This document shows, one piece after another, positions 18,502-23,374 of a stretch of DNA of 64,000 bases. Origin of the DNA: Plasmodiophora brassicae. Taxonomy: Eukaryota > Endomyxa > Phytomyxea > Plasmodiophorida > Plasmodiophoridae. The position numbers were made by a program, and so were the translations under genes. The DNA lies in assembly GCA_039704465.1 (NCBI GenBank), contig JASFAU010000010.1, positions 1 through 64,000 of the forward strand, written 5' to 3'. Numbering within the stretch: position 1 is the first letter of the stretch; each line of letters begins with the position of its first letter. The notes below the pieces were generated by a model. It searched no databases and was not told the origin of the DNA. It worked only from the letters and a program-made list of their open reading frames with translations.

Positions 18502-21500
18502 TCATTTACGAAGGCCTATGCCAGACCTCATGGACGGCGACTTCATTGGTCGGCTCAGTTGCGAGTGCACTAGGCTGCCATCATCTGATGCCGCATCTGG
18601 AACGGGCTGGGGATGTGCACTTGAGGATCTGTCGATCGCCGGCGCTGCTGCTGATGCAACTGTTGGCTGTGATGACGAGAAGTTCATGACGAGTTCAACC
18701 CCGGCGGGGAACTTGCTGTGATCGGCGTCTTTGTAAGCCTTGTCCATGTCGGCCTTGACGAATCGCAGGCAGTCGCCAACGAATGCAGCATGTAGGCAGA
18801 CGTAGACAAGAACTTTCGCCAGCTTTCCCTTCTTCTCTCGCGACAGCACTTCCACCTTGATATCGCCGGTTAGGACGCAGACCTTCCGGAGGCGCCACGT
18901 GCAGGTCGTCGCTGTTCGTGTCATCATCCGGATCCACTTCTGCCGTACTTTGCCGTCATCCTGCTGCACGGCAATCATCAGCCAGATCTCGTTATCCTCG
19001 GGCACCATCGTCCTGTCGATGTTGTTCAACACTACGCCGATCAGGCAGACGTTTCGGCGCAGATCGTGGGTGCGACCCCCAGAGAGATACTCTTCATCTG
19101 TTCATAATTGTGCACCATGTCAGTGCGGGCGAACGCATTGTATCACAACATGCCTTACAATAGTGCACATATCGCGTTTGCGACGGGGTCATTGACGATT
19201 CGTTCTCGAGGTCGGGCCGACGCGTCCAGAACAAGCGCAGGGCGGCGTCGGCCGTGGACGCGACGCCGCTATCGAGGAGGTAGGCAGCAGCCATCATGCT
19301 GGATCGTCCTTTGCCGGCCTTGCTATGTATCAAGGCTAGCGACGATTTCGTCGACAACCACTGGCGCATGGAGTCGCAGTAGTCGATCATCATCTGGAAC
19401 GGGCAGGGAGCGTGCCCGGAGAACGGGAACTGGACGATCTGGTCGCCCGGCACCTGTGAAATGTCGTAGTCGACCTCTGCGTATGCATGAGGTGCGTCAG
19501 GTGGGGATATAAGCACGTTCCGCTCGAATGGGACGCACCTAGGCACAGGTTGTAGATTCGGTACCGGACGTGCTGGGGCTGCAAGTGATCCGCCAGGAGC
19601 CGCGCCATGATCTGTCGGATGTCGTTCGTTGTGAACACGAGGATGATGACGCGGTCGGTGACCTGGATGGTGTCGAGTCCTGGCACGGACGACCACGATA
19701 CAGTGGGCGGCACAAGCGAGGCCGACGCGGGCCTTGGGCTCTGTACCGCATGGGACGTCGTCTTGCTCCCGGCGACGTCCTTCAAGCATTGCTTATGATG
19801 CAGGGTCGCTTGCAGTGCGGCCTGCAACGTCAGGCAGGAACGTGACAGGTTTCGTGCTCGTCGGCCAGCCGCGTAGGACGACAGAGCGCCTTGCAGGACG
19901 CCGAGTGATGCATAGTACCGTTTCTGCCGCAAGCGCGCCAGGTACGCCTTCGTGCCGGCCTGCACTGCGATACAGTGTCGAGCGATGGCCAGGTCGCGTG
20001 CCGACTCTAACGCCCGGTAAACGTCGTCCTTGAGGAACACCATGGTTCGTCCCAGGTGGAAGGCGGCCTGGCCCCGCAGCGACTCCACAAGATCAACCTT
20101 GTCCTCCAAGATCGTGCCAACAATCGATTCGGTGGTGGCGGACGCATTCCCGAGAGGCCGGTATCTATACGCGAACGTGTCGTGCGGGATACGTATAGGG
20201 TATCCCGCCTGTCGCACTCGAACCATCTCCAGCACGCCTAACAAACGCTAAGGGAACCTGGGTCGACAGCGGACGTTGCAACCTCAGCTGTACCTGCGTT
20301 GGACAGCTGTTCGAACACCATGGGCGATTGGAACTCGTCGGGCAGCTGTCGCTGGTTGGGTTTGATGCATCGGACGAACTGCGGCGACGTGTCGTTGAGC
20401 ATGGTCACCAGATGTTGCACCTGGGCGCGGAAATGTCCCGCCTGAAACTTGCCCTTCTTGGTGCTCTTTTTCCTCGTCTGCAAGCTGTTCGCGTCCTCCT
20501 CGGTGATCTCCTGCGGAGCGGCTGACGAATTGACGATCGTGCCGACCTGCTCGGACGTGGCCATCTCCAGCAGATCGTGCAAGTCGTCGCTGATGCGGTC
20601 CTTGTTCTTGCTGAGGAATTCGCCCACATTGTACTGGACGTCGCCAGCGTAATGCGAGATGGTCAGATGCAGGGGACGCTTCCGGCTGTCATCCTTGAAG
20701 ACGGACGACGTGGCATGGGCCTTGCAGACCTTTTCGAAGAAGGCCTGGGTGGACCCTTGTGGGATCAGGCACTCGTCGTCGAGCATGGAGAATACGCCGG
20801 ACGGCGCCGAATCGATGACGGCCAGCGTGGGCGAACAGTCCGGGAAGGTGATGGTCTCCCAGGGCACGCCCTCTCTCTCGTACACGGCCTGCTCGGCGAC
20901 GGACAGGACCCGCTCAATGAAGATCGACTGCAGCCGCTCGTTGCAGTAGTTGATGCAGATCTGCTCGAACCCGTTGTACTCGTCGAATCGTTCGAACCCC
21001 TGTGGGTAAATGTCAGGTGGGCGGTAACGCGATAGCATTATAACAGGCACTGACAAAGATGTCGAGAATGCCGATAGTGTGCGTCGTTCCGCGTGCGTTG
21101 CTTGGGCGAGCTGAGAATGACGAGTTGCTGGGGGCGGTGGACGAATCAGGCTGGAGGGCCTGGTTCATACGGGCGATCAGCCATCGGAACAGTCTGGCGT
21201 ACATCTCCTTGGCGAGCGCGTTGCGCGCCGAATCGGCCTTGTCCACGTCCACAGGCACATAGACGCGGTGTGCATCCTGCCCGATGCGACGCCCGATCAG
21301 AGCATCGCGTGTCGCTTCGTCCTCTGTGCACCGCCACAATCAGCCGACGCACCGATCGTCACCATGCGGACAGGTCGTGTCCATACCGAATGTGGACAGC
21401 TTCAGGAACCAAGTCAGATGGGTACCTGTCTGCAGGACCGCATGCCCTTCGTCGTCACTGGCGAACTCGAGGTTGCCGAGGTGCAGGATGGCGGCAAGGA

Positions 21501-22617
21501 CGTTGAGGACAGCCTGGCGCTCCCCGCCCGACATGCCCAACTGTTCCATGGCGTCGACGATCTCCTGCAGGTCACCAACGTGCGCCTGTGCTGGGCCGGC
21601 CGACCCTGCGTCCTGCCCGGGCTGTCCGCCCAGGAACTTGTACGCAGCTGGCCTCGGCACGAGTCCATACGTCGACCGGAGCGTCGCCTCGGGTTGTCCA
21701 CCGAGCAACGCGTAGAAGATGTGAAAGTTCCGTTCGCCGCTGCTGTGCGATACGATGCGGGACGTTTCCAGCATGAAGTACGACATGGACGCGTCCTGCA
21801 TCTCGCCCGACCCGGCCGACATGTGGATCTGCAGGTACTTCCCGAACCGGGAACTGTTGTCGTTCCGGAGCGTGCGCGCGTTGCCGAATGCCTCCAGCAC
21901 CGGGTTGCACTCGACGACCCGCTTCTGGATGCGGGCCGCAACTGGGCACGTTTCCATCCTCAGCATGCGCGCAGGCGCGGAAACGATGGACGACGGCGAC
22001 GGCCTACCTTCGTGCTCGGTGACGTTCGTGGCAGCGGCATTGGCCGACAGGACGGCCAGGAATTGCAGGGCGTACTTGGCGGCTTCCGTCTTCCCGCTGC
22101 CGGAGTCGCCACAGATGATGAGCGACTGAGCGGTGCCATCCCGTCGCATCCGCTGGTAGCACTGGGCCGTCGTGCCAAAGATGTGTGGCGTGCTGGACCC
22201 CGACAGGTACGTGTCGACGGCAGGGCCCTCGTACATGCCGTCGATGAGCCGGAACGGGTTCACCGATAGCAGCGTAGAGCCGGCGGCCGTGTACACCTGC
22301 GCGTGATGGAACCGCTGGCGCAGCGTCGCCAGCAGTGATGGGGCATTGACGCGGTCGAGCAGGGTCAGGTCGGTGACGTCGTGGAGAGGCCCCGTGTCCG
22401 CCCCGACCGATATCAGCGACGACATGGGCACGGCACGTGTCGGCGCATTGTCAGTGGCGTTGCCGCCGTCGTCATGGACAACGGCGACGTCAACGAGGTC
22501 GGACGGGGACCCGACAGGTGGATTGGCGGTAGGGCCCAGAACGCGCGCCTTCACGTACACGTGCTGCGGATCTGGGGCCCAGTACATGGACGGGCTGGAT
22601 GGCGCGCCGCCGGCCAT
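18502..22617 (-). CDS. Myosin motor fused to a PTEN-like pseudophosphatase and C2 domain
   Basis: Six exons (22617-21387, 21323-21055, 20999-20294, 20237-19539, 19476-19135, 19097-18502), all with GT-AG introns that keep frame, encode 1280 aa. The motor has P-loop GDSGSGKT (170-177), switch I NDNSSRFGK, relay GFERFDEYNGFEQ, FVRCIKPN, and the converter start GVLEMVRVRQAGYPIRIP. One IQ-like stretch lies near 820. Residues from about 920 match PTEN: YRIYNLC, an FPF..HAP stretch, a QWL helix, then HSKAGKGRS (1019-1027) where PTEN has HCKAGKGRT, and TRYVHY. The nucleophilic Cys is Ser1020, so phosphatase activity is not expected. The last part matches the PTEN C2 domain (GDIKVEVL, FVKADMDKAYKDAD). 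The likely role is a membrane or phosphoinositide-binding motor. The start is the first ATG; a longer N-terminus is not needed. Confidence 0.9.
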
Positions 22618-22887
22618 GACCCGCGCTATGCTCGACAACGGGGTGCTCTAGAGGTACCAGTGCCGGCGATCGACCATCGCGTTAAGGCTCGACTACCATT
22701 ATAATACAGGTGGGGCGGGCACGCTGTGCGATTCAACCGTGCCACTGTCGAGTCTGTTGACGACGTTGCGCGTGTCGGTGAGGACGCATACCCACACAAC
22801 TTGTGAATGGCCCGAGCAGGTAGAGGGCATGCAGGGGTGGGTGCCCGTGTGCGCCCGGATCTGGCGCGCCGCCGCACCGTTGTCATT

Positions 22888-23374
22888 ATGACTGCCTGCC
22901 ACAACGTGCACAGCGTAAGCCACCCGCCTCGAACCGGGCGGCAGCTGGTTCGCGGACGGTGGTGGGAGCCCACCTGATCCGCGGGGGAGACGTTCCCGCT
23001 GACAGGGGCGCGCCATGGTCGCGGCTTGCGCCCGAATGCAACTGGGCATGGAGATGTGCCTGAGCTGGTTGCTGGACATGGTGACCGTCAAGAGGCCTCC
23101 CAGCAAACCAATGGACAGCATGGCGGGCCCGGACCGGCTCGACGACGACCAGGTCGGGCGGGCCAAGGTCCCCAGCGTCGTCGGCGAACCGGACGTCTTC
23201 GACGACGACATCGTGCTAGACATCGCGTACGATGACGACGACCTGTACCATGACGAGGGTGCGCCGACCCAGGTCGACTTTGACTGGAACTGCCTGAAGG
23301 CGCCGGCACCGACCCGAATTGAGCCGGGCGCCGCCCCGCCCGTACAGGCGCCCGGTCCGGGCCACGACGACTAG
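22888..23374 (+). CDS. Small acidic protein, function unknown
   Basis: The main exon is open from ATG at 23015 to TAG at 23374 (119 aa) with GC-rich third positions and a favourable GCGCCATGG start. The C-terminal two thirds is very acidic (FDDDIV, AYDDDD, YHDE). A 91-nt intron with GTAAGC donor and CTGACAG acceptor would add a small first exon (22888-22914) in frame, but this is optional. No domain is recognised. It is divergently placed against the myosin-PTEN gene about 270 bp away. A minus-strand frame in the same place has weaker codon use and was not chosen. Confidence 0.45.

Follow-up and report, generated by a model that had tools for sequence, protein, structure and literature searches.

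The subject of this work is a gene of the plasmodiophorid root parasite Plasmodiophora brassicae, which lies on the minus strand between positions 22617 and 18502 of a 64,000-nucleotide stretch of genomic DNA (positions 1 to 64,000 of contig JASFAU010000010.1, assembly GCA_039704465.1; called the window below). That this gene encodes one chain, in which a myosin motor and an IQ-like lever are followed by a tail of PTEN phosphatase and C2, is well supported by its reading frame, and comparison with related sequences supports the classification of the tail as a pseudophosphatase, in which both catalytic residues (Cys and Asp) are gone. We consider it roughly two-thirds probable (0.68) that the product is a single-chain actin motor that would read membrane lipid through its dead PTEN-C2 tail.

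The gene has six exons and five GT-AG introns, and the spliced exons form a single open frame whose sole stop codon is the terminal one (18502), as had been proposed in an earlier reading of the DNA letters (the sequence-only reading). The introns measure, in gene order, 102, 55, 56, 62 and 61 nucleotides (nt). The length of four of the five is not a multiple of three, and in the 102-nt intron the frame entering it meets a stop inside. Introns as short as these fit the gene structure given for P. brassicae in the accessible part of the genome report, about four introns of 60 bp per gene in a genome of 25.5 Mb (PMC4471660); the present assembly comprises 25.34 Mb in 21 contigs, and the window contig is 1.26 Mb long. 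Exon 1 (21426-22617, minus strand as all features of the gene) contains the start codon, a weak N-terminal SH3-like start (Myosin_N only at E 0.2) and the N-terminal half of the motor with the P-loop and switch I. Motor sequence with the NALAK region and the beginning of switch II (DIF) follows in exon 2 (21055-21323), and the remainder of switch II (GFE), HYAG and the actin-binding and SH1 region of the motor in exon 3 (20294-20999). Exon 4 (19539-20237) encodes the converter, the IQ-like lever, a linker and the N-terminal part of PTEN in one uninterrupted frame, exon 5 (19159-19476) the core of the PTEN phosphatase domain, and exon 6 (18502-19097) the PTEN C2 domain (Pfam part 19041-18676) and about 54 further residues at the C-terminus.

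The six-exon model yields a product of 1259 amino acids (1259 codons plus stop) and not the 1280 of the sequence-only reading, in which two further details have to be corrected: the Ser at the catalytic position is residue 1007 rather than 1020, and the last intron spans 19098-19158 rather than 19098-19134. As judged from codon-position GC, a 66-nt GT-AG intron has likely been overlooked in exon 1. This candidate (21942-22007) is in frame, and its values are 0.50/0.73/0.77 versus 0.61/0.42/0.83 in the motor sequence following it. Its excision shortens an insert ahead of switch I by 22 residues, and the product would then have 1237 amino acids.

The Myosin_head domain of Pfam was found complete (residues 82-792, profile positions 2-679 of 679, E 5.5e-175), and the ATPase motifs are all present: the P-loop GDSGSGKT (residues 170-177, 22087-22110), switch I NDNSSRFG and switch II DIFGFE. 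The P-loop has Asp at a position where Glu is usual and where myosin XV has Glu. The solved structures closest to the motor were those of myosins XV and X. In motor trees, which were built from the listed matches to this motor and the myosins of the same genome only, it formed a long branch and belonged to none of the small groups with good support. The lever contains three IQ-like stretches (19789-19965), which start at residues 814, 837 and 860 with a spacing of exactly 23; the first two were detected with a pattern of our own and the third by eye. At least ten myosin loci were counted in the P. brassicae genome, this gene included, and no PTEN match was found near any of the other nine.

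Residues 909 onward matched the solved structures of human PTEN (E 5.1e-22) and, over query positions 2-243, which include both the phosphatase and the C2 part, those of voltage-sensing phosphatases (E 5.5e-19 to 1.2e-17). We judge these similarities to be far beyond chance. In Pfam, residues 1081-1202 were assigned to PTEN_C2 (E 2e-12; 47.4 bits, cut-off 27.1), in the same chain as the Myosin_head domain. Structures of the two tail exons were predicted from alignments in which the other 21 rows were all PTEN proteins. The exon-6 model (pLDDT 67.6) was a beta sandwich, and its 30 matches at E ≤0.001 were without exception PTEN or voltage-sensing phosphatase, whereas the best matches of the exon-5 model (pLDDT 78.6) were voltage-sensing phosphatase forms, mostly C363S. 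The loop region of the C2 domain is basic, with a net charge of +4 compared with 1 to 4 in six relatives (hand-chosen stretches). The earlier description of one chain that leads from a motor through an IQ-like helix into a PTEN fold and C2 is confirmed.

In the tail the PTEN P-loop reads HSKAGKGRSS (19298-19327), with the nucleophile Cys replaced by Ser1007 (codon AGC, 19324-19322). An alignment of exon 5 had Cys at this position in 21 of 21 PTEN relatives, and the other PTEN proteins that a search with the tail only brought up, 32 in number, all carried HCKAGKGR. The position of the general acid, which we take to be D92 in human PTEN numbering, is occupied by Gly in the motif FPFSGH (19412-19429), and by Asp in each of the 21 aligned relatives. 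Three more signature positions differ from the same 21 sequences: the acidic residue before the general acid (E/D91, always D or E in the relatives) is Ser, and the invariant Thr and Gly that follow the catalytic Arg (T131 and G132) are both Ser. Of the pocket residues, the His, both Lys and the Arg were present in 22 of 22 aligned sequences, the myosin tail included. The motif HSKAGKGRS with Ser for the catalytic Cys had been pointed out in the sequence-only reading and is indeed found at 19327-19298; the claim of a pseudophosphatase that went with it is strengthened by the change of the general-acid Asp to Gly and by the three other altered positions.

The choice of cargo is set by myosin tails. 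In the mechanism that we propose, light chains would bind the IQ-like lever, and the molecule would act single-headed, because the linker between lever and PTEN is too short to accommodate a long coiled coil. Docking of the dead PTEN-C2 unit on membrane that bears phosphoinositides would leave the lipid unhydrolysed, and the motor would pull the docked membrane along actin, or tether actin to the membrane. That the tail targets membrane is inferred.

Several observations weigh against this reading. The fusion of the motor to PTEN-C2 is a prediction from the gene sequence, and no close orthologue emerged from the full-length search with the tail or from the tail-only search (7996 and 7993 candidates sharing most words scored, respectively). 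Pfam found no IQ domain in the 1259-amino acid protein, and on the phosphatase part its DSPc profile scored 20.1 bits, below the cut-off of 33.5. According to the TEDS rule, a certain position of the motor is normally taken by an acidic or phosphorylatable residue (T/E/D/S). Here this position, which precedes NALAK by 16 residues, holds His416, and the regulation of the motor may therefore be unusual. The C2 domain alone, compared by phmmer with solved structures, gave no PTEN match, and its single match (BrxA, E 0.11) is probably due to chance. Since the alignment rows were all PTEN, the structure models lean toward the PTEN fold, and the exon-5 model had no structure match at E ≤0.001. The basic N-terminal motif of PTEN was not seen: in its place stands the uncharged PPTVSWSSVPGLD, versus the KKRRF type in L027 and L028 of the same genome (compared by eye). 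This replacement could weaken membrane binding, and it indicates a weaker or different lipid preference. Codon-position GC was coding-like over the phosphatase and C2 parts and not over the last 54 codons (0.63/0.63/0.48), third-position GC being 0.71-0.76 between converter and linker; such periodicity is weak evidence, as an upstream control (22700-23300) was about equally periodic in one frame.

Class I myosins consist of a motor, a short IQ lever and a membrane-lipid-binding TH1 tail. The protein of the window is alike in general plan (motor, short lever and a tail predicted to bind lipid), but its tail is PTEN-C2 instead of TH1 and its motor found no firm place within class I. In auxilin/GAK and tensin, the PTEN-C2 unit serves binding and not catalysis; these proteins differ in being without a motor, and the match of the tail to the auxilin structure 3n0a (E 1.7e-5) was far weaker than that to PTEN. 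The identical Cys-to-Ser change is found in the C363S crystal forms of the voltage-sensing phosphatase (3v0d-3v0h), which were among the top fold matches of exon 5. That change, however, was engineered in an active enzyme, whereas the change in the window is natural and accompanied by loss of the general acid.

A parallel on another actin protein is offered by the formins. According to the accessible portions of two papers, an eroded PTEN domain that is held to be a membrane anchor occurs in class II formins of plants and, as a separate case, in formins of stramenopiles (PMC2386819), these domains were probably gained more than once and inactivated in different ways (PMC2386819; PMC3817587), and the PTEN domain of a moss formin binds phosphoinositides, PtdIns(3,5)P2 especially (PMC3817587). 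Both systems thus combine a protein of the actin machinery with a PTEN domain judged to be catalytically dead. They differ in that formins are nucleators, with the PTEN domain N-terminal in plants, whereas the window protein is a motor and carries PTEN at its C-terminus. The residues lost also differ: the plant and prasinophyte formin PTENs lack the catalytic Arg and the stramenopile ones the His, as far as the same portions describe them, whereas the tail of the window protein keeps both and has lost Cys and Asp.

The dead PTEN pocket might instead be a phosphoprotein reader, or a substrate trap for a phosphorylated cargo adaptor, with the C2 domain adding only weak membrane affinity. This would agree with the retention of the His, both Lys and the Arg of the pocket though catalysis is lost, and with the loss of the basic N-terminal motif. 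Moreover, Cys-to-Ser phosphatase mutants serve as trapping mutants, and several of the fold matches were C363S forms of the voltage-sensing phosphatase. On the other hand, a Lys pair with a basic C2 attached is typical of lipid-type PTENs, and the closest precedent, the PTEN domain of formins, binds lipid in the part of the work available (PMC3817587). We regard this explanation as unlikely.

We would give still less credence to the possibility that the tail is an inert fold, retained just because it carries the C2 domain or acts as a spacer, with the phosphatase part decaying. Decay would be compatible with the five altered signature positions, with the long branch of the myosin-tail PTEN in a PTEN tree (3.43 versus a median of 0.68) and with the strong degeneration of two further PTENs of the genome (L029 and L031), but the tail is without stop or frameshift, the codon pattern of its phosphatase and C2 parts is coding-like, and every phosphate-gripping pocket residue tested has been retained.

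Myosin and PTEN are each familiar as separate families, and one gene for a myosin and another for a PTEN-like protein might have been wrongly joined. This reading, which is very improbable, was rejected because exon 4 (20237-19539) is a single frame without stop between the converter, the lever and the start of PTEN, so that the upstream gene would be left without a stop codon, and because the identical open reading frame (ORF) of exon 4 is recorded as P0002 on four public contigs. Each of these is at most 18.8 kb long and hence distinct from the 1.26-Mb contig, which makes a join peculiar to the window assembly unlikely, though they may share their isolate with the window contig. The existence of a second myosin-PTEN chain (P0094, see below) also speaks against two genes. 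Finally, the codons for Ser (AGC) and Cys (TGC) are one base apart, but that a sequencing error conceals an active PTEN is hardly credible: a single miscalled base was rejected as a sufficient cause, since it cannot account for five changed signature positions, among them the general acid (Gly for Asp) and the E/D91, T131 and G132 positions, relative to 21 of 21 relatives.

One PH-kinase-PTEN protein, P0001, came out of the full-length search with the tail. Of the 33 proteins from the tail-only search, one (P0002) is the exon-4 ORF of the window gene itself. Motor matches numbered 6577, and within the best 120 of them P0094 (2129 amino acids, source lgn) was the sole chain adding PTEN_C2; more PTEN-tailed myosins may exist beyond these 120. 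P0094 contains a myosin head, IQ, RGS, C2, PTEN with HCKAGKGRTG, and PTEN_C2. It is like the window protein in having the head first, IQ between and then PTEN phosphatase-C2 in one chain, and unlike it in the inserted RGS and C2 and in a PTEN that retains HCKAGKGRTG and DDH and is probably, by these motifs, an active phosphatase. The two motors share only 34% identity. A first PTEN tree (42 rows) was discarded, as the myosin row stood among long branches with bootstraps of 27-58 along the path. In a topology test with 26 of the 42 rows (16 long-branched or redundant rows dropped), a shared PTEN origin with P0094 was not rejected (p-AU 0.386). P0094 and the window motor were sisters in a 30-row motor tree (support 70/83, not starred), stood in one open fork in a 54-row tree, and were apart, with weak support, in a 130-row FastTree. 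The rare residues common to the two motors numbered seven, below several other rows (maximum 11). One hint of common origin is a NAG triplet in the SH1 region, which a single regular expression found in one of the 120 listed motor matches, P0094. A scan of viral contigs with P0094 detected no relative. It is possible, though the odds are against it, that the PTEN-bearing motors represent an old, unrecognised myosin lineage, in which the motor of some protists (P0094) would haul an active PIP3 phosphatase along actin and the plasmodiophorid tail would now be a dead lipid reader.

Seven other PTEN loci of the genome were compared; an eighth, weak match (L032, C20, E 0.166) was left out. Four of the seven (L026, L027, L028 and L030) have HCKAGKGRTG and D/E-D-H intact, and in L025 the active-site motif is HCQTGRGRT. 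A canonical PTEN of the genome is located at C8:1273 kb. L029 (G000:C7, about 159 kb) and L031 (G000:C10, about 472 kb) are PTEN-like genes whose active-site motifs are heavily eroded. In L026 (5496-7446; G000:C7, about 1.297 Mb), a kinase-like stretch lies just upstream of the intact PTEN on the same strand. The kinase-like stretch is 29% identical to P0001 (E 1e-21) and the PTEN part 54%, and L026 looks like a kinase-PTEN fusion. PI3K helical-domain matches, class I and other classes taken together, were also present in the genome.

Pfam detected no FH2 domain in the 1259-amino acid protein, and no PTEN-formin was seen in the genome, where no PTEN match lay within 70 kb of an FH2 match. Four FH2 (formin) copies score near-identically (G000:C13 at 722, 755 and 758 kb, and C17 at 324 kb), which suggests that they arose by recent duplication. 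Next to the myosin-PTEN gene, the minus-strand ORF 18021-16018 has, by eye, a signal-peptide-like start (MTVALAVFLLAYTTRYALA); this and a second neighbouring ORF gave no Pfam match up to E 0.01.

Among the matches listed in the open-access literature, no PTEN-tailed myosin was found by title or start of abstract, and in two pan-eukaryotic surveys of myosins (PMC5583752, PMC3942036) the main text never mentions 'PTEN'. This agrees with the earlier statement that no described myosin class is known to have such a tail, which P0094 qualifies, as a further myosin-PTEN exists in sequence data. In their accessible parts, the surveys report that protist myosins commonly carry new tails (PMC5583752; PMC3942036), and P. 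brassicae myosins are annotated in one of them (PMC5583752), where the window gene may be catalogued as a myosin.

If the proposed reading is true, the protein would be a naturally occurring case of an actin motor coupled directly to the PI3K/PTEN lipid code, whose tail, derived from the central PIP3 phosphatase, has lost its chemistry and kept the residues that grip lipid. The parallel with the eroded PTEN of formins, a different actin protein, suggests that a dead PTEN-C2 unit is a reusable membrane address tag. With its apparently active PTEN on a myosin, P0094 allows the notion of a lipid phosphatase carried by a motor to be tested directly. Should an old lineage of PTEN-bearing myosins be real, one architecture, first used to erase a membrane signal, would have come to follow that signal.

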